This document shows positions 11,403-58,971 of a stretch of DNA of 64,000 nucleotides, piece after piece (positions within the stretch are counted from its first letter, which is position 1; each line of letters starts with the position of its first letter). Position numbers and translations under genes: made by a program. Source of the stretch: Magnetovibrio blakemorei (GTDB taxonomy: Bacteria > Pseudomonadota > Alphaproteobacteria > Rhodospirillales > Magnetovibrionaceae); NCBI RefSeq assembly GCF_001746755.1, contig NZ_MCGG01000002.1:62001-126000 (forward strand). The letters are read 5' to 3'. A model generated the notes under the pieces. It worked only from the letters and a program-made list of their open reading frames with translations, was not told the DNA's origin and searched no databases.

Positions 11403-14318
11403 TTAATACGACAACGGGACTTTCACCGTAAAGGTTGAACCGACGCCTGGAGTGCTGGACACCTGAATATCGCCGTGCATGGCTTCGATCATGCGTTTGG
11501 CCAGAACCAGGCCCAACCCGGTGCCTTCCACATCCCCGTCTTGGGCATGTAGACGTTGGAACGGCTGGAACAGATCTTGACATTCTGCCTCTGTCAAACC
11601 GTGACCGGTGTCGGTCACATCGATTTTCAAACAGTTGCCCGGCGCAACCGAAACCATCACATCCACCCGGCCGCCATCGACGTTGTATTTCACCGCATTG
11701 CTCAATAAATTGATGAGCACCTGCTTGAATTTGGTGCGGTCCACCCACACGAGCGGAACCGGCGTGTCGCCGTAATCTCGCACCAGCAAAACCCCTTTTT
11801 CAGCACTGAGCGTGCGTACCAACTCGATGCAATCATCAATCACGGCTGTGGCCGATATCGCTTCTAGGTGCGCGCTTGTGCGCCCCGCTTCGATGCTGGC
11901 CAGGTCCAAAACTTCATTGATAACCGTCAGCAGATGCTCGCCTGAGCGTGAAATGATATCGATGTATTCACGCTGTTTGGGCGTCAGACTATCGGAGTCT
12001 TGATACGCCATCATCTGTGAAAAACCGATGATGGCGTTGAGCGGCGTGCGCAATTCGTGGCTCATACCAGACAGAAAATCAGACTTGGCGGCGTTGGCAT
12101 TTTCGGCCAGTTCTTTGGCAATCAGCAAGTCTTGTTCCGCTTGGCGCTGCCAGGTTACGTCCCGGCTCGTTCCCTCGACGCCCAGAATTTCGCCGTCATC
12201 ATCATAATAATAATAGCTGTTGGTTGCCGCCCACACGGTTGTCCCGTCTTTGCGCCGCAATTGAATTTCATAATTTTCGATACGTCCGCCCCGTACGGCC
12301 AGTTGTTTAAGAAACTCATCGCGACCCGAAGCGTCAACGTATATGGCGCTGACAGGCGTACCGACCAATTCGTCTGGCTCATAGCCCAAGAGTTTTATGA
12401 CCCCTGCCGAGCACATGGTGAAGCGACCCTTTTTGTCCGTGCGGTAAAACGCTTCGACAATGTTGTCTAAGATGGCGCGCACGTCCCGCTCGGATTGTTG
12501 CAAGGCGGCTTCCATGCGCTTGCGTTCCGTAATGTCGTGATAAACCAGCAACAGGGCGTCTTCCCCGTCAATATGCATGCGCACCCCCGACATCAAAAAG
12601 TCGCGCATTTCTTTTGCCCGCGTTTGCATGCGGGCCTCATAGTTGACCAACACACCGTCTTTGGTAAATGCCCGCAGCATCTGTTCGCGCGCCAGGGACG
12701 AATGCCACACCTCCAACTGGGTGGAGGTTTTGCCAATCGCTTCGGTGTAATCAAACCCCATCACCTCGACCCACTTGGCGTTGACGTCCAAAAACTGTCC
12801 GTCTTTGAGAACGGAAATGGTCATCAAGCTGGGACTGGCGTGAAAGATGCTCCAGAACTTTCGCTCAGAAGACCGCAGCGCATCTTCCGTCTGCTTGATT
12901 TTGGTGATGTCCGTTTGCACGCTCACCAGTCCGCCCGACGATGTCCGACGGTCTTGGGTCATCAATTGGCGCCCATCCTTCAAGATCACCTGAAAGGTAC
13001 CTTCCAATTTGATGCGATACTTCAGCCTGATTTGGAGATACTCATCGGCATTTTTATAACCCTCGGGAACAACGACGTTGCCTTGCATCACGTCGATCAA
13101 GCCCAAATCCATAAAATGCACACCGGGTCTGGCCTGCGCCTGAGTGTAGCCGTAATCGTTGCGAAACCGCGAATTGCAGATCACCAGTTTGCCGTCTTGA
13201 TCATAGAGCACAAAGCCTTCCGGCATGGAATTGATGGCATCGGTCAAATTCTGCTCGGCACGTGAAGCCCGGTCACGGGTCGTGCGCAGTTCTTGTTCCG
13301 CATCCAGACGCATCAACGCCAGACCGATAATTTCCGCGACGCGTTCCAAGAGGTGAGCATCATCCGTCGTCCATTTGCGCGGACTGGTTTGCACATCAAC
13401 ACTGACAAAACCGATAAACCGCTCTCCCAATTGGATGGGAGCACTGAGGTGAGCGTGAATGTTTGCCCGCAGCAAGCTGGTGCGAAATGCCTCCGCGTCG
13501 GCTGGCAGGTCGAGCGCATTGTCAACCATGACGGTTTTGCCATCACGGTACTGATCCAGACACCATTGAAAGCGATCTCGTGGAATGCCGACGGTTTTTC
13601 TGAGACCCGCGCCCTTTTCGCCCTCAACCCATTCAAGGGCAGTGCTGGCATGGGTGTTGGTGGCATAAAGATTATCGGCGGATAATCGAAACAAAGCCCC
13701 CCGTTGCGCGTCCAGACTGACGGACAAAATGCGCAACGCCTCTTCGATCGCCGCGCCAGAAGCATCCGCCAACAATCCACGGGTGATATCGGCCAAGACG
13801 GTGTCATGCGCTTGGCGCAAGCGTAACGCGGCTTCGGCATCGCGGCGAACCGTTATGTCTTCTTTCACGGCAACAAAATGCGTGATGTCTCCTTGAGGCC
13901 CAAGAATCGGGGCGATTGCCGTGGATTCCCAATAGCGCTCCCCCGTACGTTTGCGGTTGCACATCTCACCGCGCCAAATTTCTCCCTTCAAGATGGTTGA
14001 CCACAACGTGTCATAAACGTGTGTCGGCGTTTGCCCGGATTTGAGCAAATTGGGCTTTCGCCCAATGACGTGCTCTTGGCTGTAACCCGTACTTTTGACA
14101 AAGCGGTCATTGACGTATTCAATCACGCCGCTCCGATCCGTGATGACCACGCATGACGGACTGGCCTCAACCGCCTGAAAAAACTTGCGATACTCATGTT
14201 GCAGATCAAGATGAGCGCCCGCGCCAAAGGGCTCCGCCGCAGTCGCGCCAGCTTTGGATTTTGGGTGCGCCTCTTGAACGATTTGATCCGCGCCGTTTTT
14301 ATTTTTGTTAAATGTCAT
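11403..14318 (-). CDS. multi-PAS/GAF sensor histidine kinase
   Basis: 971-residue cytoplasmic histidine kinase without membrane segments. Domains in rough order: PAS 1 (45-160, ITDRSGVIEYVND, with a GDITHFVAVKEDIT PAC end), GAF (170-345), PAS 2 (355-480, SMPEGFVLYDQDGKL), PAS 3 (485-600), PAS 4 (610-735, FYRTDKKGRFTMCSAG), HisKA with His754 in GMSHELRTPL, and HATPase with LINLLSNAVKYN, DTGHGL and GTGLGL. It has no C-terminal receiver, so it needs a separate partner. The only receiver-like gene nearby is the degenerate protein at 10603-11394. The ligand cannot be predicted; PAS/GAF stacks commonly bind haem, flavin or small molecules. Confidence 0.93.
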   Translation of the reverse strand: MTFNKNKNGADQIVQEAHPKSKAGATAAEPFGAGAHLDLQHEYRKFFQAVEASPSCVVITDRSGVIEYVNDRFVKSTGYSQEHVIGRKPNLLKSGQTPTHVYDTLWSTILKGEIWRGEMCNRKRTGERYWESTAIAPILGPQGDITHFVAVKEDITVRRDAEAALRLRQAHDTVLADITRGLLADASGAAIEEALRILSVSLDAQRGALFRLSADNLYATNTHASTALEWVEGEKGAGLRKTVGIPRDRFQWCLDQYRDGKTVMVDNALDLPADAEAFRTSLLRANIHAHLSAPIQLGERFIGFVSVDVQTSPRKWTTDDAHLLERVAEIIGLALMRLDAEQELRTTRDRASRAEQNLTDAINSMPEGFVLYDQDGKLVICNSRFRNDYGYTQAQARPGVHFMDLGLIDVMQGNVVVPEGYKNADEYLQIRLKYRIKLEGTFQVILKDGRQLMTQDRRTSSGGLVSVQTDITKIKQTEDALRSSERKFWSIFHASPSLMTISVLKDGQFLDVNAKWVEVMGFDYTEAIGKTSTQLEVWHSSLAREQMLRAFTKDGVLVNYEARMQTRAKEMRDFLMSGVRMHIDGEDALLLVYHDITERKRMEAALQQSERDVRAILDNIVEAFYRTDKKGRFTMCSAGVIKLLGYEPDELVGTPVSAIYVDASGRDEFLKQLAVRGGRIENYEIQLRRKDGTTVWAATNSYYYYDDDGEILGVEGTSRDVTWQRQAEQDLLIAKELAENANAAKSDFLSGMSHELRTPLNAIIGFSQMMAYQDSDSLTPKQREYIDIISRSGEHLLTVINEVLDLASIEAGRTSAHLEAISATAVIDDCIELVRTLSAEKGVLLVRDYGDTPVPLVWVDRTKFKQVLINLLSNAVKYNVDGGRVDVMVSVAPGNCLKIDVTDTGHGLTEAECQDLFQPFQRLHAQDGDVEGTGLGLVLAKRMIEAMHGDIQVSSTPGVGSTFTVKVPLSY

Positions 14319-34078: not shown

Positions 34079-34153
34079 TGGGGCGTAGCCAAGTGGTAAG
34101 GCAGCGGCTTTTGATGCCGTGCACCGTAGGTTCGACTCCTACCGCCCCAGCCA
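34079..34153 (+). tRNA. tRNA-Gln (anticodon TTG)
   Basis: The sequence folds into a standard cloverleaf: acceptor stem TGGGGCG pairing with CGCCCCA, anticodon stem GCGGC / GCCGT with loop TTTTGAT (anticodon TTG), T arm with GGTTCGACTCC, discriminator G and encoded CCA (34151-34153). A possible promoter lies in the 159-bp gap upstream (TTGCGA, then TTATTT 16 bp later, near 34003-34030), weakly supported. A strong terminator follows 9 bp on. The tRNA marks the left edge of the menaquinone block. Confidence 0.96.
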
Positions 34154-34161
34154 AAATCAGC

Positions 34162-34187
34162 AAAAGGCTCCCGAGCGGGAGCCTTTT
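34162..34187 (+). terminator. intrinsic terminator of tRNA-Gln
   Basis: Perfect 11-bp stem AAAAGGCTCCC / GGGAGCCTTTT with loop GAGC. The T-run at its end (34184-34187) runs directly into the first TGTC repeat of the adjoining element. Confidence 0.93.
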
Positions 34188-34250
34188 GTCATTTCCAGTT
34201 TAATTTGTCATTTCACAGCTTAGTTTGTCGTTTTCATAACTTAGTCTGTC
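34187..34250 (+). repeat. four TGTC-core repeats at about 20-bp spacing (possible transposon end)
   Basis: TGTC cores start at 34187, 34206, 34226 and 34247, spacings 19, 20 and 21 bp. Their surroundings agree: TTTTGTCATTTCC, TAATTTGTCATTTCA, TAGTTTGTCGTTTTCA and TAGTCTGTCGCAAG. Multiple binding-site repeats at about two helical turns, starting with TGTCATTT, are characteristic of transposon ends bound by TniA/TnsB-type transposases (Tn5053/Tn402, Tn7-like). No transposase gene and no convincing inverted partner end was found in the window, so this is at most a remnant. The rest of the AT-rich gap to 34486 shows no other feature. Confidence 0.5.
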
Positions 34251-34486
34251 GCAAGATTTGGCCAGTATCCTGATAAATCAGGGTGTTGGCCGTATTTTAT
34301 TTACAGATCAAAAATTGACCGTTTTCACAATTGAGAGTTTTCGTCGGATAACGGTTGGAGCGAATTAAATGACTAAAAATCACCAAACTCATTAGATTAC
34401 ATTCCCGGTCATAAATGAAGTCGACGCATGACAAGGTCCCGTCCTTTATCGTCGACAACTCTGCATCAAGATGGCATAGGTTTCTC

Positions 34487-35887
34487 ATGGATAGTTTTCA
34501 CCCATTGTTGAGCGCGCTGCTGGCCCGTTCGGATGCCGCTGCGGCGTTAATAGGCTCGGGGATTACCAGCGTCACCATGGCCCTGCCCGACGTTGGGTTT
34601 GACGGATTGCCACAGGGCCTACCCCAAGGATTGACCGATTTCATCTACTGGGCGAGCCCCGAAGATCGCCACTTCCTGCTCGGCTGCGAACAGGTGGTTT
34701 CGGTCGAGACCACGGGCCAGCGGCACATTGGTGCGCTGGCCGCCGCCTTGCAGTCGATGCAGACCAATTGGCGGCAGTTTGACCTCGACGACCTGGGCCA
34801 ATCCCCAGCCCTGTTCACTGGTTTCCCCTTTGCCGCGGCAAGTGCCAACGACGCAACCGAGCACACCACGGCAGGGCTAAGCGCCTTCCTGCGCTTGCCC
34901 CTGATCACCCTCCAGCGCCAACGGGCGGTGTGCAGCCTGACCCTCAACTGGCACCGCGACAAGGGCGACGGCGAGGCCGCCAAGGCCGCCTGGCTGCACG
35001 CCCTGCAGCGGCTTCTGATCGCCGTTTCCTCACCGATTGACGCCGCCCCCTGCGCCAATCCCCTGCGCCGCGTCTCGGCCACGCCCAACGACGCCACCTG
35101 GCTTGCCCGCGTCGGCCAAGCCACCCAAGACATCCACCAAGGACTCTTAAAAAAGGTCGTCCTGAGCCGCCACATCCACGTTGTCGCCCCGCGCCGCTTC
35201 GAACCGGCGCGGCTGTTGATCAACCTCGCCCAACGCTTTCCCAGTTGCGTTCAGATCGCCATGACCGGAGACTTCGGCGTGTTGGCGGCGGCAACCCCGG
35301 AACGGCTGATTCGCCTGAAACACGGACGACTGCACAGTGACGCCCTGGCCGGGACCTGGCGCCGCGATCCCGACGAAGGCCGCGACGCCCTGCTCGGCTT
35401 CGATCTGCAACACAGCGACAAAGCCCTGCACGAACACCAACTGGTCGTCGATGCCATCTTGCGTCGGCTCGCCCCAGTCAGCTCAGACCTCACCTATCCA
35501 GAAGAGCCCCTGCTGATGCGGTTGCGCGGCCTGCATCACTTGTGGACCCCGATTGAAGGCAAACCCGCCCGTGAAATCGGCTTGCTCGACCTCGCCGAAC
35601 GCCTGCACCCGACCCCTGCGGTCGGCGGCGCGCCCTCCGCAGCGGCCCTTGATTGGCTAGCCCGTCATGGTGAAACCCGCGACGGCCTTTATACCGGTGT
35701 GTTCGGCTGGATGACCCCCGGCGGCGATGGCGATTTGTCCGTGGTTTTGCGCTGCGCCGTGCTCAAAGACAATCACGCCCATCTATCGGCGGGGGCGGGA
35801 ATTGTCGGTTCCTCCGACCCCATAGAGGAACTGGCCGAAACCGAGCTCAAACTCGCCGCCATGCTCGACGCCCTGGAGGAGGCATGA
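34487..35887 (+). CDS. menF: isochorismate synthase (menaquinone-specific)
   Basis: Converts chorismate to isochorismate, the first step of the classical menaquinone pathway. About 466 residues of the chorismate-binding family. Diagnostic parts include KKVVLSRHI, AATPERLIRL, ALAGTWRRD, HLWTPIEGK, LHPTPAVGGAPS and YTGVFGWMTPGGDGD near the C terminus, ending AGAGIVGSSDPIEELAETE. The start at 34487 is preferred. The frame is open to an ATG at 34415, but that extension lies in AT-rich sequence with no clear ribosome-binding site. First gene of the menF-D-B-C block; GC is markedly higher than in the genes outside the block. The final TGA overlaps the menD ATG. Confidence 0.92.
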   Translation: MDSFHPLLSALLARSDAAAALIGSGITSVTMALPDVGFDGLPQGLPQGLTDFIYWASPEDRHFLLGCEQVVSVETTGQRHIGALAAALQSMQTNWRQFDLDDLGQSPALFTGFPFAAASANDATEHTTAGLSAFLRLPLITLQRQRAVCSLTLNWHRDKGDGEAAKAAWLHALQRLLIAVSSPIDAAPCANPLRRVSATPNDATWLARVGQATQDIHQGLLKKVVLSRHIHVVAPRRFEPARLLINLAQRFPSCVQIAMTGDFGVLAAATPERLIRLKHGRLHSDALAGTWRRDPDEGRDALLGFDLQHSDKALHEHQLVVDAILRRLAPVSSDLTYPEEPLLMRLRGLHHLWTPIEGKPAREIGLLDLAERLHPTPAVGGAPSAAALDWLARHGETRDGLYTGVFGWMTPGGDGDLSVVLRCAVLKDNHAHLSAGAGIVGSSDPIEELAETELKLAAMLDALEEA

Positions 35888-37620
35888 TGCTGGACCAGGG
35901 ACACTTGAACCTGATCTGGGCCGACGCCCTGATTAACGGCTTGGTCCAGGCCGGGGTCCGGCGCGTCGTCATCTCGCCTGGCTCGCGCTCGACGCCGTTG
36001 GTCCTCGCCGTTGCGCGCCATCCGTCAACCCGAGATTGGGTCATCGGCGACGAACGTAGCGCCGCCTATTTCGCCCTCGGCCTAAGCAAGTTGTCGGGCA
36101 CGCCAGCGGCCGTGATTTGCACCTCCGGCACCGCCGTCGCCAATTGGCTGCCCGCCATCATGGAGGCCTCGGCTGCCAATGTGCCGTTAATCCTGATCAG
36201 CGCCGACCGCCCGCCCGAAGCGCGGGCAATCGGTGCCAATCAAACCACCGACCAAATCAAACTGTTCGGTGATCTGGTGCGCGCCTTTCATGAATTGCCG
36301 CCGCCCGCCGAAGACGAGATCGACACCTTGCCCGGCCTCACCGCCCGCATCGTCGATGCGGCGCTGTCGTCCCGCCCCGGCCCGGTCCACATCAACGTGC
36401 CGTTTCGCGAACCGCTGCTGCCCAAAAATGACCTCCCGCCAGCGAATAGGCGCGGTGGGCGGGCCATAACCATCCATCGCGGCGTCACCCTGCCCAGCGC
36501 CGACACCATCACCACCCTCGCCGCTGTCCTGTCGAGTGGCAAGGGGGTGATCGTCTGCGGTCCGGATCGTCTCGACGTACCCTTTGCCCACGCCGCGGTC
36601 CGCTTGGCCAACCGCGTCAACGCGCCGATCCTGGCCGATCCCCTGTCCGGCCTGCGGCGCGGCCCATGGGTCGACGACACCGTTATTGGCGGCTACGACG
36701 GCTTTTTGCGCAGCCCTCATTTCACAGAGGCTCACCAACCGGACTGGGTACTGCGTTTCGGCGCCTATCCGGTGTCCAAGGGCCTCGGTCAGTACATGCG
36801 CATGTGCGCTACCAGCCAGCACATTGTCGTTGCCGAATATGATCAATGGCCCGACCCCGCCGGACACGCCACGCACATGATCCACGCCGACCCCCGCAGG
36901 GTTGCCGAATCGCTCACCAAGGCCATCGCCACGGGGGCAGACCTGCACTGGCTGAAGGCCTTCCAAGCGGCCGATGCGCAGGTTCGCGCGGCCCTTCCCC
37001 CCCCCTCCGCGACGGGTCTGTTCGAGGATCGCGTGGTCACCCTGCTCGCCCACCACCTGCCCGCCGATAGCTTGCTGTTCGCCGGGAACTCGATGCCCGT
37101 GCGCGAGTTGGACAGCTTCCTCAGCGTCGAGCACAAACCCTTGCGCATGACCGGCAACCGCGGCGTATCCGGGATCGACGGCAATATCGCCACCCTCCTG
37201 GGACTGGCCGCTGCCGACCCCGCAGGCGCGCCCGCGGTCGGCCTGATCGGCGATCTGACCTTCGCCCACGATAGCGCCAGCCTGCGCGCGGCCCAAGACA
37301 TCCCGGTGCTGATCGTCGTCCTCGACAACGGCGGTGGCGGCATTTTTGAATACTTGCCGCAAGCGGGCCTGGATGCGGCACTGTTCGCCCGCTACTGGCT
37401 GACCGACGACGCCCCCGACATCGCCAAAGTCTGTGCCGCCTATGAGATTGTCTGTCATCACGCCATTGACGAGGCAAGTTTGCAGCATGCCTTAAGCGCG
37501 GCCTTGCGCTCCAAAACGACGCAGGTGATCCGCGTCGTCCTCGACCGCCGGGCCAGCAACAAACGCCACCAGGACCACTGGCAGGCTTGTATCGACCCCT
37601 TTCAAGGAGACACCCCGTGA
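35884..37620 (+). CDS. menD: 2-succinyl-5-enolpyruvyl-6-hydroxy-3-cyclohexene-1-carboxylate synthase
   Basis: Thiamine-diphosphate enzyme that joins isochorismate with 2-oxoglutarate-derived succinic semialdehyde (SEPHCHC synthase). 578 residues, the usual length. N terminus carries the family's [26 protein letters not shown] (ThDP-activating Glu) and [12 protein letters not shown]; the C terminus has [13 protein letters not shown] and [12 protein letters not shown] with the ThDP-Mg motif region and [12 protein letters not shown]. Start ATG lies in the menF stop overlap. One sample line (36121-36180) is 68% GC by my count, against 50% in a sample line (30121-30180) of the ETF-quinone oxidoreductase gene outside the block. 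Confidence 0.95.
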
Positions 37621-38441
37621 GCATTGCCTGGCAGGCCATCGAAAAACCCACCTTCACCGACATCACCTATCATCAAGCCGAGGGCATCGCCAAGATCACC
37701 ATCAATCGCCCACACGTTCGCAACGCCTTCCGTCCGGAGACCGTGCGCGGCATGATGGCGGCCTTCCGCCACGCCCATCTCGACAAAGACATTGGCGTTA
37801 TCATTCTGACTGGCGCGGGCGAACTGGCTTTTTGTTCGGGCGGCGATCAGAAAGTGCGCGGCGATAGCGGCTATCGCGATGAAAGCGGCGAGGAAGGCCT
37901 CGACGTTCTCGAATTGCAGCGGCAAATCCGCACCCTGCCCAAGCCCGTCGTTGCCATGATCGCCGGGTACGCCATCGGCGGCGGTCATGTCTTGCACCTG
38001 TGTTGCGATCTGGCGATTGCTGCCGACAACGCCCGCTTCGGCCAAACCGGCCCCCGCGTCGGCAGCTTCGATGCGGGTCTCGGCGTCGGCTTGCTGGCGC
38101 GTATGGTCGGCCTGCGCCGGGCCAAGGAAATCTGGTTCCTGTGCCGTCAGTACGACGCCCGGCAGGCCTATGAAATGGGCTTGGTCAACACCGTGGTCGC
38201 CGTCGAGGATCTGGAGGCCGAAACCGTCGCCTGGTGCCGCGATATGCTTAAACTGTCACCCACCGCCTTGCGCTGCATGAAGGCCTCGTTCAACGCCGAC
38301 ACCGATGGCGTCGCCGGTCTACAAGAACTGGCTGGCAACACCACCGGGCTGTTTTACATGACCGAGGAAGGACAGGAAGGCCGCAACGCCTATGTCGAAA
38401 AGCGCGCCCCCGATTTTTCAAGCTTCCCCCGTCGACCATAG
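37617..38441 (+). CDS. menB: 1,4-dihydroxy-2-naphthoyl-CoA synthase
   Basis: Crotonase-fold enzyme that closes the naphthoquinone ring, forming DHNA-CoA from o-succinylbenzoyl-CoA. 274 residues, starting with GTG that overlaps the menD TGA. It closely follows the E. coli type: [39 protein letters not shown] (bicarbonate-type, with Gly where other MenB forms carry the catalytic Asp), [11 protein letters not shown] and [13 protein letters not shown]. These features separate MenB from ordinary enoyl-CoA hydratases. Third gene of the block. Confidence 0.95.
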
Positions 38442-38456
38442 ATCAAACCATCCGTC

Positions 38457-39431
38457 ATGCTCACCGTAATCCCCTACAGCCTGCCCCTGTTGCGTCCGTG
38501 GACGACGGCGCGGGGCGTGCTGCACACCCGCCAGGGCTGGCTGGTGCGGGTCGGTGATGCATGGGGCGACTGCGCGCCCATGGTCGAGGCCGGAACCGAG
38601 TCCCACGCTCAGGCCTGGGCGGCCTTGACCTCTTGGGACGGCGGCACCACCGAGGAACTACCCGCCGCCGCCCGCTGCGCCATCGAAAGCGTCCGCCTGC
38701 CGCATCGTTTCGGTGGTGCGGGAACGGTCCGCGTCAACGCCGCCCTCGGGGCCATCGACGACGCCCTGGCCGCCTCGATTGCCGACGCCGCCGACGCAGG
38801 CTTCCAGATCGTCAAACTCAAACTCGGCGTCCGCCCATGGGCCGAGGAACTGACCGCGCTGGAGGCCCTGAGTCTGCCCGAGGGGATGTCTTTGCGCCTC
38901 GATGTCAACGAGGCCTGGACCATGGCTCAGGCAAGCGACGCCGTTCAGCGCCTGCGCCCCCTCGCCATCGACTGTATCGAAGACCCCTTGACCGACCCAT
39001 CATGCGACGCCCTCGCCGCCCTCCAGGCGCAAACGTCGATTCCCCTCGCCGCAGATGCCTGCCTGAGCAGACTTGGTGTCGATGCCCTGATCGCCGCCAA
39101 GGCGGTTCGACGGTTGATCCTCAAGCCGATGGTCCAGGGCGGCCCCGACCGTTGCGTGGCCATCGCCGCACGGGCCAAGGCCGAGGGCATCGCTTGCATC
39201 GTGACGACGGTCGTCGAAAGCGCCTGCGGCGTGTGGCTGGCCGCGCGCACGGCGGCGGAGATCGACCCCAGCGCAGAGCAGACCCACGGATTGGATACGT
39301 CACGTTGGCTGTGCGAAGACACCGGCCAACCGCCGCCAATCGTACGGGGTCGCATCGCCTTAGGGGGCGGGTTTGTGCCCTTCGATGAGTTTCTTCAGAG
39401 CCCTGCGATCAGACTTGCCAAGCCGATTTAA
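38457..39431 (+). CDS. menC: o-succinylbenzoate synthase
   Basis: Enolase-superfamily dehydratase making o-succinylbenzoate from SHCHC. 324 residues. Catalytic and metal residues are in order: Lys in KLKLG, Asp in LDVNEAW, Glu in CIEDPL, Asp in LAADACL and Lys in LILKPMVQGG. The gene follows menB by 15 bp, apparently as the last gene of the plus-strand men block. Its 3' end overlaps the convergent menE gene by 72 bp, so both genes share coding DNA in opposite strands there. MenH, which makes its substrate from SEPHCHC, is not visible in the window. Confidence 0.93.
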   Translation: MLTVIPYSLPLLRPWTTARGVLHTRQGWLVRVGDAWGDCAPMVEAGTESHAQAWAALTSWDGGTTEELPAAARCAIESVRLPHRFGGAGTVRVNAALGAIDDALAASIADAADAGFQIVKLKLGVRPWAEELTALEALSLPEGMSLRLDVNEAWTMAQASDAVQRLRPLAIDCIEDPLTDPSCDALAALQAQTSIPLAADACLSRLGVDALIAAKAVRRLILKPMVQGGPDRCVAIAARAKAEGIACIVTTVVESACGVWLAARTAAEIDPSAEQTHGLDTSRWLCEDTGQPPPIVRGRIALGGGFVPFDEFLQSPAIRLAKPI

Positions 39432-40631
39432 GGGCAGTTCGTCGACCTGAACTGCTTGGCGAGGACGGTAAGACCCGGCCAGATTTTCGCGCGCCCAGGC
39501 GAGCACCTGGGCGGGCGCAATCGTCCCCACATAGAGCGCAACCACCACGTCACCCCACGTCGGGTCCTGCGTTGCCGTGACCGCCACCCCCTCGACTCCG
39601 GGGCAATTCGACAGGGCCGCCTCAATGGCGGTGGGGTGCAGGGTTACGCCACCACTGATCAACACGTCATCGGCCCGCCCGAGGATGCTCAGCGTGCCGT
39701 CGGCCTCCACGCGGGCCACATCGCCGGTCTTGAACCAGCCGTTTTCGTCCAGTCCATCGCCGGGTCGTAAATCAGCGTTGAGGTAGCCACACATCACTGC
39801 GGGGCCGCGCACGGCGAGGCGTCCATCCCCAACAAGGGCGACCTCAAAAGAGTCGAGCGGGCGGCCAACTTGACCGGGCCGCCAGGTATCGTCGATGGTC
39901 ATCAGAGTCGCCAACTGAGAACCGGTCTCGCTCATCCCGTAGGTTGGCGCGAGCGGCCATCCGGCGGCCAAGGCGCGCCCTGCTAGGGCCGGGGACAGCG
40001 CCGCCCCGCCGGTCAAAACCACGCGCAAGGCGGGTGGCGGCGGACGATCCCCGGCGGCATCGAGGAGCTGCGCCAGCATCGCCGGAACGACCGAGATGTG
40101 GCTGACCGGGTGGGCGTTGATCTCGGCCCACACATGATCGGCTTCGAATCGCTCGGCGAGCAGGACCGTCGCCCCGGCGGCGGCGGCCCGATAAAGAATC
40201 GACAAGCCGCCGATATGACTGAGCGGCAAGGGGTTGAGCCAGATATCGCCGGGATGCAGGGGAATCCGTACGTTCGAGGCAGCGACGGCGGCGCTGATGT
40301 TGGCTTCACTGAGCATCACCGCCTTGGGCGTGCCGGTGCTGCCCGTGGTGGCAACGATCAGGCGTACGTCTGTCGCCGCCGTGGTGGTCGCGACGGGGGC
40401 GAGCAAAGCCTCACGGAGGGGCCTGGGCAGGGTCGGGTCAAGGGCAAACAGCGCGCGTTTCGCGGCCCACGCCCCATGGACCAGGCTGACCATATCGAGA
40501 CGATTCGTTTCGCCGACGACCACCTGCGCATCGCCATAGGACGCCATCACCTCCCGCCCCCGGGCGTGCAGAGTGGCGTAGGATACGGCTCGTCCGCTAT
40601 GGATCAAGGCGATGGCGTTGCTGTTGTTCAT
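39360..40631 (-). CDS. menE: o-succinylbenzoate-CoA ligase
   Basis: AMP-forming acyl-CoA synthetase of about 423 residues, shorter than most ligases of the superfamily but normal for MenE. Motifs: TTGSTGTPKAVMLSE (P-loop), NPLPLSHIGGLSILYRA, TYGMSETGSQ, WFKTGDVARVE and LPLNRLGKSDRRALKKL with the C-terminal catalytic Lys. The start at 40631 (MNNSNAIALI) is preferred; the frame is open 118 codons further upstream but those show no homology. It is on the opposite strand to menF-D-B-C and needs its own promoter. GC-rich like the rest of the block. Confidence 0.93.
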   Translation of the reverse strand: MNNSNAIALIHSGRAVSYATLHARGREVMASYGDAQVVVGETNRLDMVSLVHGAWAAKRALFALDPTLPRPLREALLAPVATTTAATDVRLIVATTGSTGTPKAVMLSEANISAAVAASNVRIPLHPGDIWLNPLPLSHIGGLSILYRAAAAGATVLLAERFEADHVWAEINAHPVSHISVVPAMLAQLLDAAGDRPPPPALRVVLTGGAALSPALAGRALAAGWPLAPTYGMSETGSQLATLMTIDDTWRPGQVGRPLDSFEVALVGDGRLAVRGPAVMCGYLNADLRPGDGLDENGWFKTGDVARVEADGTLSILGRADDVLISGGVTLHPTAIEAALSNCPGVEGVAVTATQDPTWGDVVVALYVGTIAPAQVLAWARENLAGSYRPRQAVQVDELPLNRLGKSDRRALKKLIEGHKPAP

Positions 40632-40917
40632 AGAATCACGACTAGACAGAGCGAAGGCGAAACTGTCGCCGGGCAGGATGGTTGAGCCAATTAAGCACAC
40701 CCTCACCGTATGCGAAAGGGGCTCCTGCACAACGCCCTTGAGCGAAACAAAGGCCTCGCCCTTAGCCCCGCCGTTGCGGCGCAGGCGACCATGTCTGACG
40801 TCAGCATCCCTGGGACACACGGAGACCAATGCGTAACGGAAGATTTTTGGCTCGTCGTAGAGAGTGAAAGCGAATGAAGATGAAACTAGAAATCCATAAA
40901 CGAGACAGACAGCGCCG
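40632..40917. other. intergenic gap, probable right edge of the GC-rich men block
   Basis: 286 bp between menE and the thioesterase gene, both on the minus strand. It is open in the menE frame but does not read as MenE. I see no terminator, tRNA or clear transposon end. It contains GACAGA at 40645 and 40905, too weak to count as the partner of the TGTC repeats at 34187-34250. Promoters for menE are expected here. Confidence 0.35.
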
Positions 40918-41331
40918 TCAGTCGAAACGGGCGCGGATGTCATCGGGAACGCAGACCGCCCGAATACCGCTGACGTGGGTCTCATCGATCACCACCCAAC
41001 CCCGCACCTCATGACCAATCACCGCTTCCACGCCGCCGTTGTAAATCTTATGGATGACTTTAAAGGAAGAGTTTCCCCAGCTTTCGATGGCGCTTTCCAC
41101 GGTAATCACATTGCGAAAACGTGATGGCCGCATAAACTTCGCATGTGCGTCCAAGATGGGAATGCCGAGGATGCCATGATCCTTGAACATCTGCGGAAGC
41201 TCCAACCCCACCGACGCAAAAAGTTCGGTGGTTCCGTTTTCGAACCAGCGAAAATAGTTGGGGTAGAAAACAATGTCGGCAGGATCGCAATCGCCCCACG
41301 GCACGGTCATGTCATAACGGTTGGACTTCAT
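40918..41331 (-). CDS. 4-hydroxybenzoyl-CoA thioesterase family protein (hotdog fold)
   Basis: 137-residue hotdog-fold acyl-CoA thioesterase. The 4-hydroxybenzoyl-CoA thioesterase active site is present: the catalytic Asp in GDCDPADIVFYPNYFRWF near the N terminus, followed by PILDAHAKFMRPSRF. A GGGGAAT ribosome-binding site precedes the ATG. A sample line (41101-41160) is 50% GC by my count, so it looks native, not part of the GC-rich men block. Its substrate is open: 4-hydroxybenzoyl-CoA by family, or 1,4-dihydroxy-2-naphthoyl-CoA, because the cyanobacterial and plant DHNA-CoA thioesterases belong to this family and menE is its neighbour. Confidence 0.85.
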   Translation of the reverse strand: MKSNRYDMTVPWGDCDPADIVFYPNYFRWFENGTTELFASVGLELPQMFKDHGILGIPILDAHAKFMRPSRFRNVITVESAIESWGNSSFKVIHKIYNGGVEAVIGHEVRGWVVIDETHVSGIRAVCVPDDIRARFD

Positions 41332-41352
41332 TTTAGGATTCCCCTCGTGCCG

Positions 41353-41439
41353 TTATTTGAGCATATGCGGTAGCCACAGCGCCAATGTTGGGAACAAGGT
41401 CAGCTGCGCAACGCGAATAAAGTCCGCTGTCTAAAATGG
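41353..41439 (-). pseudogene. 3' remnant of a TRAP transporter large permease
   Basis: The minus strand reads LPF-stop-TADFIRVAQL, then TLFPTLALWLPHMLK and a stop codon at 41353-41355. This resembles the C terminus of DctM-type TRAP permeases (alternating hydrophobic residues ending LWLP). A TAG lies where a Leu is expected, and everything upstream is missing. Only about 28 codons remain, 21 bp before the thioesterase start, so the two were once probably neighbours in one operon. Confidence 0.5.
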
Positions 41440-41558
41440 CAACGAAGGTTTCTGTCAGCTTCACACCACGCGCCATGGAGTTAACCTGGATTATTCATCG
41501 AAGGCTCGGTTTCGAGTTGGTGGGCATAACATCATTCCTTGTAATCGTTTAGAAAATT

Positions 41559-41584
41559 GTTGTTAAGCAGCCTTTCTTAACAAC
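41559..41584 (-). terminator. hairpin, possible terminator of the nas operon
   Basis: Perfect 9-bp arms GTTGTTAAG / CTTAACAAC around 8 bases. On the minus strand it is followed by AATTTTC. It lies 257 bp past the nasA stop codon and could end the nas transcript. The T-run is weak. Confidence 0.5.
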
Positions 41585-41689
41585 CCCCGAAAATGCCACG
41601 CCCGCGATGACCGATGATATCCTTCTTCCCTTCGATCTTCCAGTGGTTCGCCGCAACATTTTCATCATCACCCAGGCAAGCGGCATGCC

Positions 41690-41838
41690 AGGATGGTGGC
41701 GAAGACAATGCCCTGTGGCAGGACAACGATCCCGCCGGTGATGCCGGCGATCAGGTCGGCCTTTAGCGTTTGTGGCGTGACCATAGACAACCAGCCGACA
41801 AGAATGCAGGTCTGAACGGGGGGATGAATTTGCGGCCC
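41690..41838 (-). pseudogene. 5' remnant of a SulP-family anion transporter
   Basis: About 45 codons on the minus strand read VGWLSMVTPQTLKADLIAG then ITGGIVVLPQGIVFATI, the signature N-terminal membrane entry of SulP sulfate/anion transporters. The next codons lose the family sequence (LACRLPG) and hit a stop codon. A different frame is then open for about 35 codons (GDDENVAANHWKIEGK), which I cannot identify. The remnant starts just after the nasA stop, as if a co-transcribed transporter had been truncated. Confidence 0.6.
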
Positions 41839-57744: not shown

Positions 57745-58971
57745 TTATTGAGTCGACAGACGCTGAACCTGAGCCTCGGCTTCGGCCGCCTTGTCGGCAT
57801 TGCCCAACACCCGATAAGCCTGGGCAAGGCGTTTCCACCCTGCGACGTCGTCAGGGTTTTCCTTCAGCTTATCGGCCAAGCGTTGGACCATGGATTCGAT
57901 CATTGCTTTTTGATCTTCCGCGGTCATTTCCTGGGCATCACGCATTTGCTCTTGGGTTGGTCCCGGTGCCGCGTTTGCTCCACCTTCAGGATTGGCAAGC
58001 GCGCCGGGGCCGGTCGCCAAACCAGAAGACACAGGACCCATCGGCGGCAACATCTCTACCACTGGAACGGGTTGCCCCATTTCCGTCGCCAAGTCTTGCA
58101 TACGGGTTTGAATTTGTTCGACCCATTCGGCGTTGGACGGGGACGCCTTCAACAGCGCCACATATTCAGCCATCGCGCCTTCTTGGTCTTGGTGCTGTAA
58201 ACGTTCCAGCGCCAAGTAAAAATACGCGCGCGGCTCGGACGGGTCTTTGGCTTTGACCTCTTTGAGAAGCTCCGTCACAGCTGGCAACACGACGGTGTCG
58301 TTGGCAACGATCTGCGCCTCCGCCCACGCCGTCAGCACTTCCACATGACGGTCGGTCAAGGCCACGACCTTTTCATAGACCCCCGCCGCATCGGCGTAGC
58401 GGTTCATGGCTTCATAGACTTGCGCCAGCACCAACCAACCTTCGATGTCTTTGGGATTTTGCTCTAAGCGCTGTTCCAACTCAGCCAGCATTTTACGCGC
58501 GCGGTCGCGATCCGCTTCGCTGATGCCCGCATGCTGCGCAGATTGCTGTTCCGCCTCTAAATTGCGGGCGGCCAACGGCTGATCGGGCAACTGAGGCTGC
58601 CCCAGATACATGTAAAAGCCCACGGCCCCCAAAGGCACGACAATCAACAGCGCGATGATCAGCGCCATGGCGGTTTTGCGGTTGCTGGTTTCTGCCACTT
58701 CAAGACCGCTGGCACTGCCCCCATCGGTGTCGGAGGCATTCAACATGCGCCGTTCAATTTCGGTCCGCGCCGCCAAAGCTTGGTCTGGGTTCAAGACGCC
58801 GCGATCCAAATCGCGATCAATTTCGCTGAGCTGATCTTTATAAACCGTCAAATCATATTCGGCGCGCGAGGGACCTTGGGCCGTCGATTTGGTCTTGCGC
58901 GCCAAGGGCACAATGAGAAACACCAGCGCGACAACGATCAACGCGGCAACAACACTCCAAAACGCGATCAT
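57745..58971 (-). CDS. ccmI: cytochrome c maturation protein CcmI
   Basis: Apocytochrome c chaperone of system I. 408 residues. Two N-terminal membrane segments (6-22 and about 95-120, MALIIALLIVVPLGAVGFYMYL) flank a cytoplasmic part with a leucine-zipper-like stretch (YDLTVYKDQLSEIDRDL), typical of CcmI-1. The periplasmic remainder is TPR-rich (GWLVLAQVYEAMNRYADAAGVY and WKRLAQAYRVLGNADKAAE). A Pro/Gly-rich linker of 50 residues occurs near 290-330. It overlaps ccmH by 4 bp, so it is the last gene of the ccm operon on this strand. Confidence 0.93.
   Translation of the reverse strand: MIAFWSVVAALIVVALVFLIVPLARKTKSTAQGPSRAEYDLTVYKDQLSEIDRDLDRGVLNPDQALAARTEIERRMLNASDTDGGSASGLEVAETSNRKTAMALIIALLIVVPLGAVGFYMYLGQPQLPDQPLAARNLEAEQQSAQHAGISEADRDRARKMLAELEQRLEQNPKDIEGWLVLAQVYEAMNRYADAAGVYEKVVALTDRHVEVLTAWAEAQIVANDTVVLPAVTELLKEVKAKDPSEPRAYFYLALERLQHQDQEGAMAEYVALLKASPSNAEWVEQIQTRMQDLATEMGQPVPVVEMLPPMGPVSSGLATGPGALANPEGGANAAPGPTQEQMRDAQEMTAEDQKAMIESMVQRLADKLKENPDDVAGWKRLAQAYRVLGNADKAAEAEAQVQRLSTQ

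Follow-up and report, generated by a model that had tools for sequence, protein, structure and literature searches.

A probable orphan end of a Tn7-like transposon in the terminator of the tRNA-Gln gene of Magnetovibrio blakemorei

Downstream of the tRNA-Gln gene of Magnetovibrio blakemorei, in the 64,000 nucleotides of DNA analysed here (the window), we observed an array of repeats with TGTC cores. Judged by its sequence and by comparison with related genomes, this array is very probably the tRNA-proximal (left) orphan end of a Tn7-like TniQ-TnsA-TnsB-TnsC transposon, the repeats representing putative TnsB-binding sites. The scar is genuine but fairly commonplace, the mobile DNA that left it being of a familiar kind. 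Nevertheless, about 65 bp of sequence are sufficient to place the left boundary of a genomic island, and the list of Tn7-like attachment sites now includes tRNA-Gln of Rhodospirillales-type bacteria. Moreover, diverged TnsB end arrays with a fixed spacing, together with stacked insertions, are useful for studying how TniQ reads a tRNA and how the specificity of TnsB changes. A limited literature search, covering main texts, found no published description of a tRNA-Gln attachment site; the use of diverse tRNA genes by Tn7-like elements is already known (PMC11406308). The features concerned are as follows.

34079 to 34153, plus strand: tRNA-Gln (TTG) with encoded CCA, the attachment gene and sole tRNA of the window (ARAGORN)
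34161 to 34188, plus strand: stem-loop of the tRNA-Gln terminator (CAAAAGGCTCCCG/CGGGAGCCTTTTG; inverted repeat)
34182 to 34186, plus strand: CTTTT quintet outside the end, by its position expected to be the left-hand copy of the target duplication (5 bp)
34187 to 34255, plus strand: left-end array consisting of the terminal TGTCATTTC and three 20-bp TnsB-type sites (sequence, site matrix)
34195 to 34214, 34215 to 34234 and 34236 to 34255, plus strand: the predicted 20-bp TnsB-type sites, with cores spaced 19/20/21
34259 to 34292, plus strand: stem-loop followed by a T-rich tail, a predicted terminator (sequence)
34293 to 34414, plus strand: A+T-rich stretch before the menF frame, probably the interior of the element end (sequence)
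34415 to 40985: menF, menD, menB and menC (plus strand) and menE (minus strand), a G+C-rich block and possible former cargo (reading frames, GC)
57745 to 58971, minus strand: ccmI-like gene, the first one past the array to occupy the same place in the relative G008 (comparison with G008)

The earlier note had reported four TGTC cores at a spacing of 19-21 bp that start in the tRNA-Gln terminator, and these positions proved exact to the base. The cores are located at 34187, 34206, 34226 and 34247 (spacing 19/20/21), corresponding to 33, 52, 72 and 93 nt past the CCA of tRNA-Gln. The sequence from 34187 to 34251 reads TGTCATTTCCAGTTTAATTTGTCATTTCACAGCTTAGTTTGTCGTTTTCATAACTTAGTCTGTCG, and from the last bases of the tRNA-Gln terminator, whose 13-bp stem is perfect and within which the transposon end begins, the order is TGTCATTTC-CAGTTTAATTTGTCATTTC-ACAGCTTAGTTTGTCGTTTTC-ATAACTTAGTCTGTCGCAAG. 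A set of four TGTC sequences spaced by 18-22 bp is present a single time in the window and in none of 40 mononucleotide shuffles, and the same holds for a set of three TTAR..TGTC cores spaced by 19-22 bp. By itself, the looser motif TTTGTCATTTC is unremarkable (14 matches versus 22.7 expected); the signal resides in the spacing and in the longer 20-bp unit, and not in this motif. When a site matrix derived solely from relatives was scanned over 147 kb of the contig, the three full sites of the array obtained the three highest scores (27.6, 22.7 and 19.8), and the next-best place, with a score of 16.2, was isolated. The array is not a product of chance. With four cores and TGTCATTTC at its start, it has the predicted make-up of a Tn7-like end, namely several TnsB-type sites and a terminal TGT.

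Related arrays were sought at the DNA level in 100 related genomes, and in the sequence behind their tRNA-Gln genes. They were found behind tRNA-Gln in ten genomes of the same order (G001, G002, G003, G004, G008, G010, G131, G134, G135 and G154), at a distance of 29-43 nt from the CCA and with diverged sequence. The core offsets +19/+20/+21 are conserved in the clear cases, and most TGTC cores are replaced by TGCG in G001 and G004. The attachment site is fixed and spares the target gene, at 33 nt past the CCA in the window and at like offsets in these ten other genomes. According to the earlier note, the same repeats downstream of tRNA-Gln in relatives without any insertion would speak against a transposon end; in G005, which belongs to the same genus, and in G006, G007 and G016, tRNA-Gln is present and the array behind it is absent. 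Since the array is present in some relatives and absent in others, we consider it an insertion and not a part of the tRNA terminator. A model comprising array and hairpin (R1) matched a single place in the M. blakemorei genome (E 2e-26) and, within the order, had matches in 13 further genomes. The hairpin behind the array is kept in most family members having the array; as its covariation is weak (2/16 pairs), we name it a predicted terminator only. In G002 (C18, 4131-4362; L004), a TGTC-type and then a TGCG-type left-end array follow each other behind tRNA-Gln, each with its own hairpin, and represent the layered scars of two elements.

A pattern scan of public genomes yielded mostly unrelated tandem repeats, the useful matches being JANLGW010000071.1, NVTL01000040.1 (similar to G010) and one further NORP contig with a tRNA-Gln tail and the array; a plasmid search gave chance matches only. 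A contig labelled Flavobacteriales (JAESTK010000120.1, L163) contains a tRNA-Gln tail followed by this array and the hairpin, and is most likely a misbinned alphaproteobacterial contig.

Intact elements with these left ends are found in G134, a complete genome of the order, where two Tn7-like elements are stacked at tRNA-Gln. The left end of the upstream element lies at 937446, 31 nt past tRNA-Gln, and its partner right end at 967798; the terminal repeats are identical at 17/22 positions and the 5-bp duplication is TATGT. The second left end begins at 967801-967802, one element being inserted immediately before an older one. The earlier note had compared the repeats to ends bound by TniA/TnsB transposases and had suggested a possible insertion point. 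The upstream element supports a transposon of the TnsB type (DDE, Mu-C) and an insertion behind tRNA-Gln, being located there with the same left end, together with a right end and the 5-bp duplication. It contains TniQ-TnsA-TnsB frames, of which Pfam confirms TniQ and TnsB, and a DDE transposase ORF after tnsB, and the downstream stretch, opened by the older left end, encodes TniQ-TnsA-TnsB-TnsC, all four confirmed by Pfam. The TnsA of this genome is a 213 aa ORF. The G134 elements resemble the window in the tRNA-Gln target, in the offset (31 vs 33 nt) and in the 19/20/21 spacing, and their 20-bp site (CACAGCTTAGATTGTCC) is similar to, but slightly different from, the window site. However, G134 has two stacked copies with transposition genes, the upstream one with both ends and the duplication, whereas the window has the left end only. 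Like stacking is observed in G012, where a right end terminating in ..CTGACA is followed by TCAGA and then by TGTCAGATACATCTTAG.

G008 contains an intact 25-kb Tn7-like element inside its own copy of the array. The ends of this element differ (TGTCGGGAACATTTTTAATTG) and comprise perfect 21-bp terminal repeats with the duplication ACAGC; its genes encode TnsA, TnsB, TnsC, TniQ, a type I restriction-modification system and a Mokosh-like system. In G003, a 34-kb TniQ-TnsABC element is located 33 nt past tRNA-Val, with the duplication TTTTT. The TniQ proteins of G008 and G134, both at tRNA-Gln, share 52% identity, as compared to 34-36% with the TniQ at tRNA-Val of G003, which is in line with, but no proof of, a TniQ that may choose the tRNA. 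A simple repeat scan revealed no CRISPR-like repeats in the G134, G008 and G003 loci or in the window, and no Cas effector was present among ten G134 ORFs scanned.

Targeting of tRNA genes is shared with CRISPR-associated transposons. CyCAST (type I-D CAST, Tn7745) employs TnsD for homing 30-33 nt downstream of tRNA-Leu (PMC10293859), a distance matching the offset in the window, and the Tn7 core machinery is common to both. CyCAST and PmcCAST (type I-B2; PMC10293859, PMC11406308) combine TnsD homing to tRNA genes with a fused TnsA-TnsB and CRISPR-Cas. In contrast to these I-D and I-B2 systems, tnsA and tnsB are separate genes in the intact elements of the relatives, which encode a single TniQ (424-439 aa) and in which no CRISPR-like array was found.

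The inverted partner end and the 5-bp duplication, which the earlier note had proposed to look for, were detected neither in 147 kb of the contig, searched by terminal-repeat identity, the CTTTT duplication, the site matrix and a covariance model, nor by genome-wide pattern and model searches, which revealed no clustered sites elsewhere and no second copy of the end. Likewise, the genome contains no match to the TnsB (Mu-transpos_C) or TniQ domain. The control genomes also gave no match to these models, but the genes were recovered by the same searches in the relatives G003, G008 and G134, where Mu-transpos_C and TniQ genes are present, as are tnsA and tnsC. The earlier note had seen neither a transposase gene nor a partner end, and this holds as well. 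Because partner end and duplication are missing, we file the array as an orphan end and not as a complete element, and the extent of the original element cannot be derived. Within the family, no owner transposase of the exact site variant CTTAGTTTGTCG was found; the nearest intact owner belongs to another family of the order and to the TTAGATTGTCC-type variant. A Mu-transpos_C match in G004 was rejected, as it is likely a Mu-type phage transposase (ParB neighbour, no TniQ). Mu-transpos_C matches also occur in G006 and G007, genomes in which no TniQ was found.

In the gene order of G008, the ccmI-like gene at 57.7 kb is the next backbone gene, and the variable interval therefore extends from 34.19 to 57.7 kb. 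In the A+T-rich stretch at 34293-34414, a short segment (GATCAAAAAT) is similar, by eye, to G008. The first genes of the interval are menFDBC and menE. Positions 41350-41830, flanked by a thioesterase-like frame (about 40.9-41.33 kb) and a molybdopterin oxidoreductase gene, contain no long reading frame and resemble, by eye, broken pieces of a TRAP transporter; this segment may be the scar of a rearrangement to the right of the men block.

The men block (34.4-41.3 kb) could be the cargo of an element with this left end, only the right end and the transposition genes being lost, which would refine the assignment to a Tn7-like transposon and not replace it. We regard this as a serious possibility that falls short of being probable. 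The block lies directly behind the array, its GC is 0.65 versus about 0.56, no MenD of comparable score was found in 17 genus/family relatives, and metabolic genes are known among Tn7-like cargo (PMC8649781). However, the link is unproven because no right end was found in 147 kb, nor was a duplication copy; moreover, the apparent gene remnants at 41.35-41.83 kb point to a possible later rearrangement, and the men genes may have arrived separately.

Transposons of the Tn402/Tn5053 type (tniA-tniB-tniQ-tniR) lack tnsA and target plasmid res sites; the terminal bases of their ends are of the TGTC type, and several transposase sites follow one another at intervals of about 20 bp. The start TGTCATTT and the repeats spaced by about 20 bp are reminiscent of Tn5053-type ends, a resemblance already mentioned in the earlier note. 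Nonetheless, it is highly improbable that the array is the end of such a TniABQR transposon: elements with this end type carry tnsA beside tnsB, and are therefore Tn7-like and not Tn402/Tn5053, and they are located behind tRNA genes instead of plasmid res sites. Finally, there is next to no chance that the array represents operator repeats for a regulator of menF, with direct 20-bp repeats (two helical turns) preceding the men operon, since, although the menF frame follows the array at a distance of 160-300 bp on the same strand, the position of the array tracks the tRNA and not menF, a predicted terminator separates the two, and the proposal is largely refuted by arrays without men genes, G001-G004, G008 and G010 having the array there, yet only weak generic TPP-enzyme matches to MenD.

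For the orphan Tn7-like end, we envisage that a TniQ/TnsD target selector would have recognised the tRNA-Gln gene and that TnsC would have passed the target signal on. Insertion by TnsA and TnsB would then have taken place in the terminator, about 33 nt past the 3' end of the tRNA, leaving the tRNA intact, with TnsB presumably binding the 20-bp units. Later, the transposition genes and the right end may have been lost by deletion, leaving the left end with the predicted terminator hairpin. Persistence of the left end requires nothing more than simple decay from the far side; target immunity conferred by a retained left end is speculation. More tentatively, tRNA-Gln might serve as a serial landing pad in this order, where CRISPR-free Tn7-like elements with unfused TnsA/TnsB and a tRNA-Gln-specific TniQ would insert repeatedly before or inside older left ends, thereby generating layered scars. 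According to this rather doubtful scheme, the TnsB site would have drifted from TGTC to TGCG with the 19/20/21 spacing remaining fixed, and orphan ends might confer target immunity.

Further arrays were observed at other locations. In G003, a larger Tn7-like element contains two right-end-like arrays (C71, 13888 and about 36289; L092/L093) that are inverted in orientation and share no duplication. The sites of the array at 13888 are spaced by about 44, 22 and 31; this array is located beside tnsC, but its orientation is wrong for a part of that tns operon, and its spacing is that of a right end. In G049 (C144, about 10.2 kb; L148), the transposon ends TAGAACTGACA and TGTCAGTTCTAG are arranged head-to-head, 8 bp apart, and a further TGTCAGTTCC end is located downstream.
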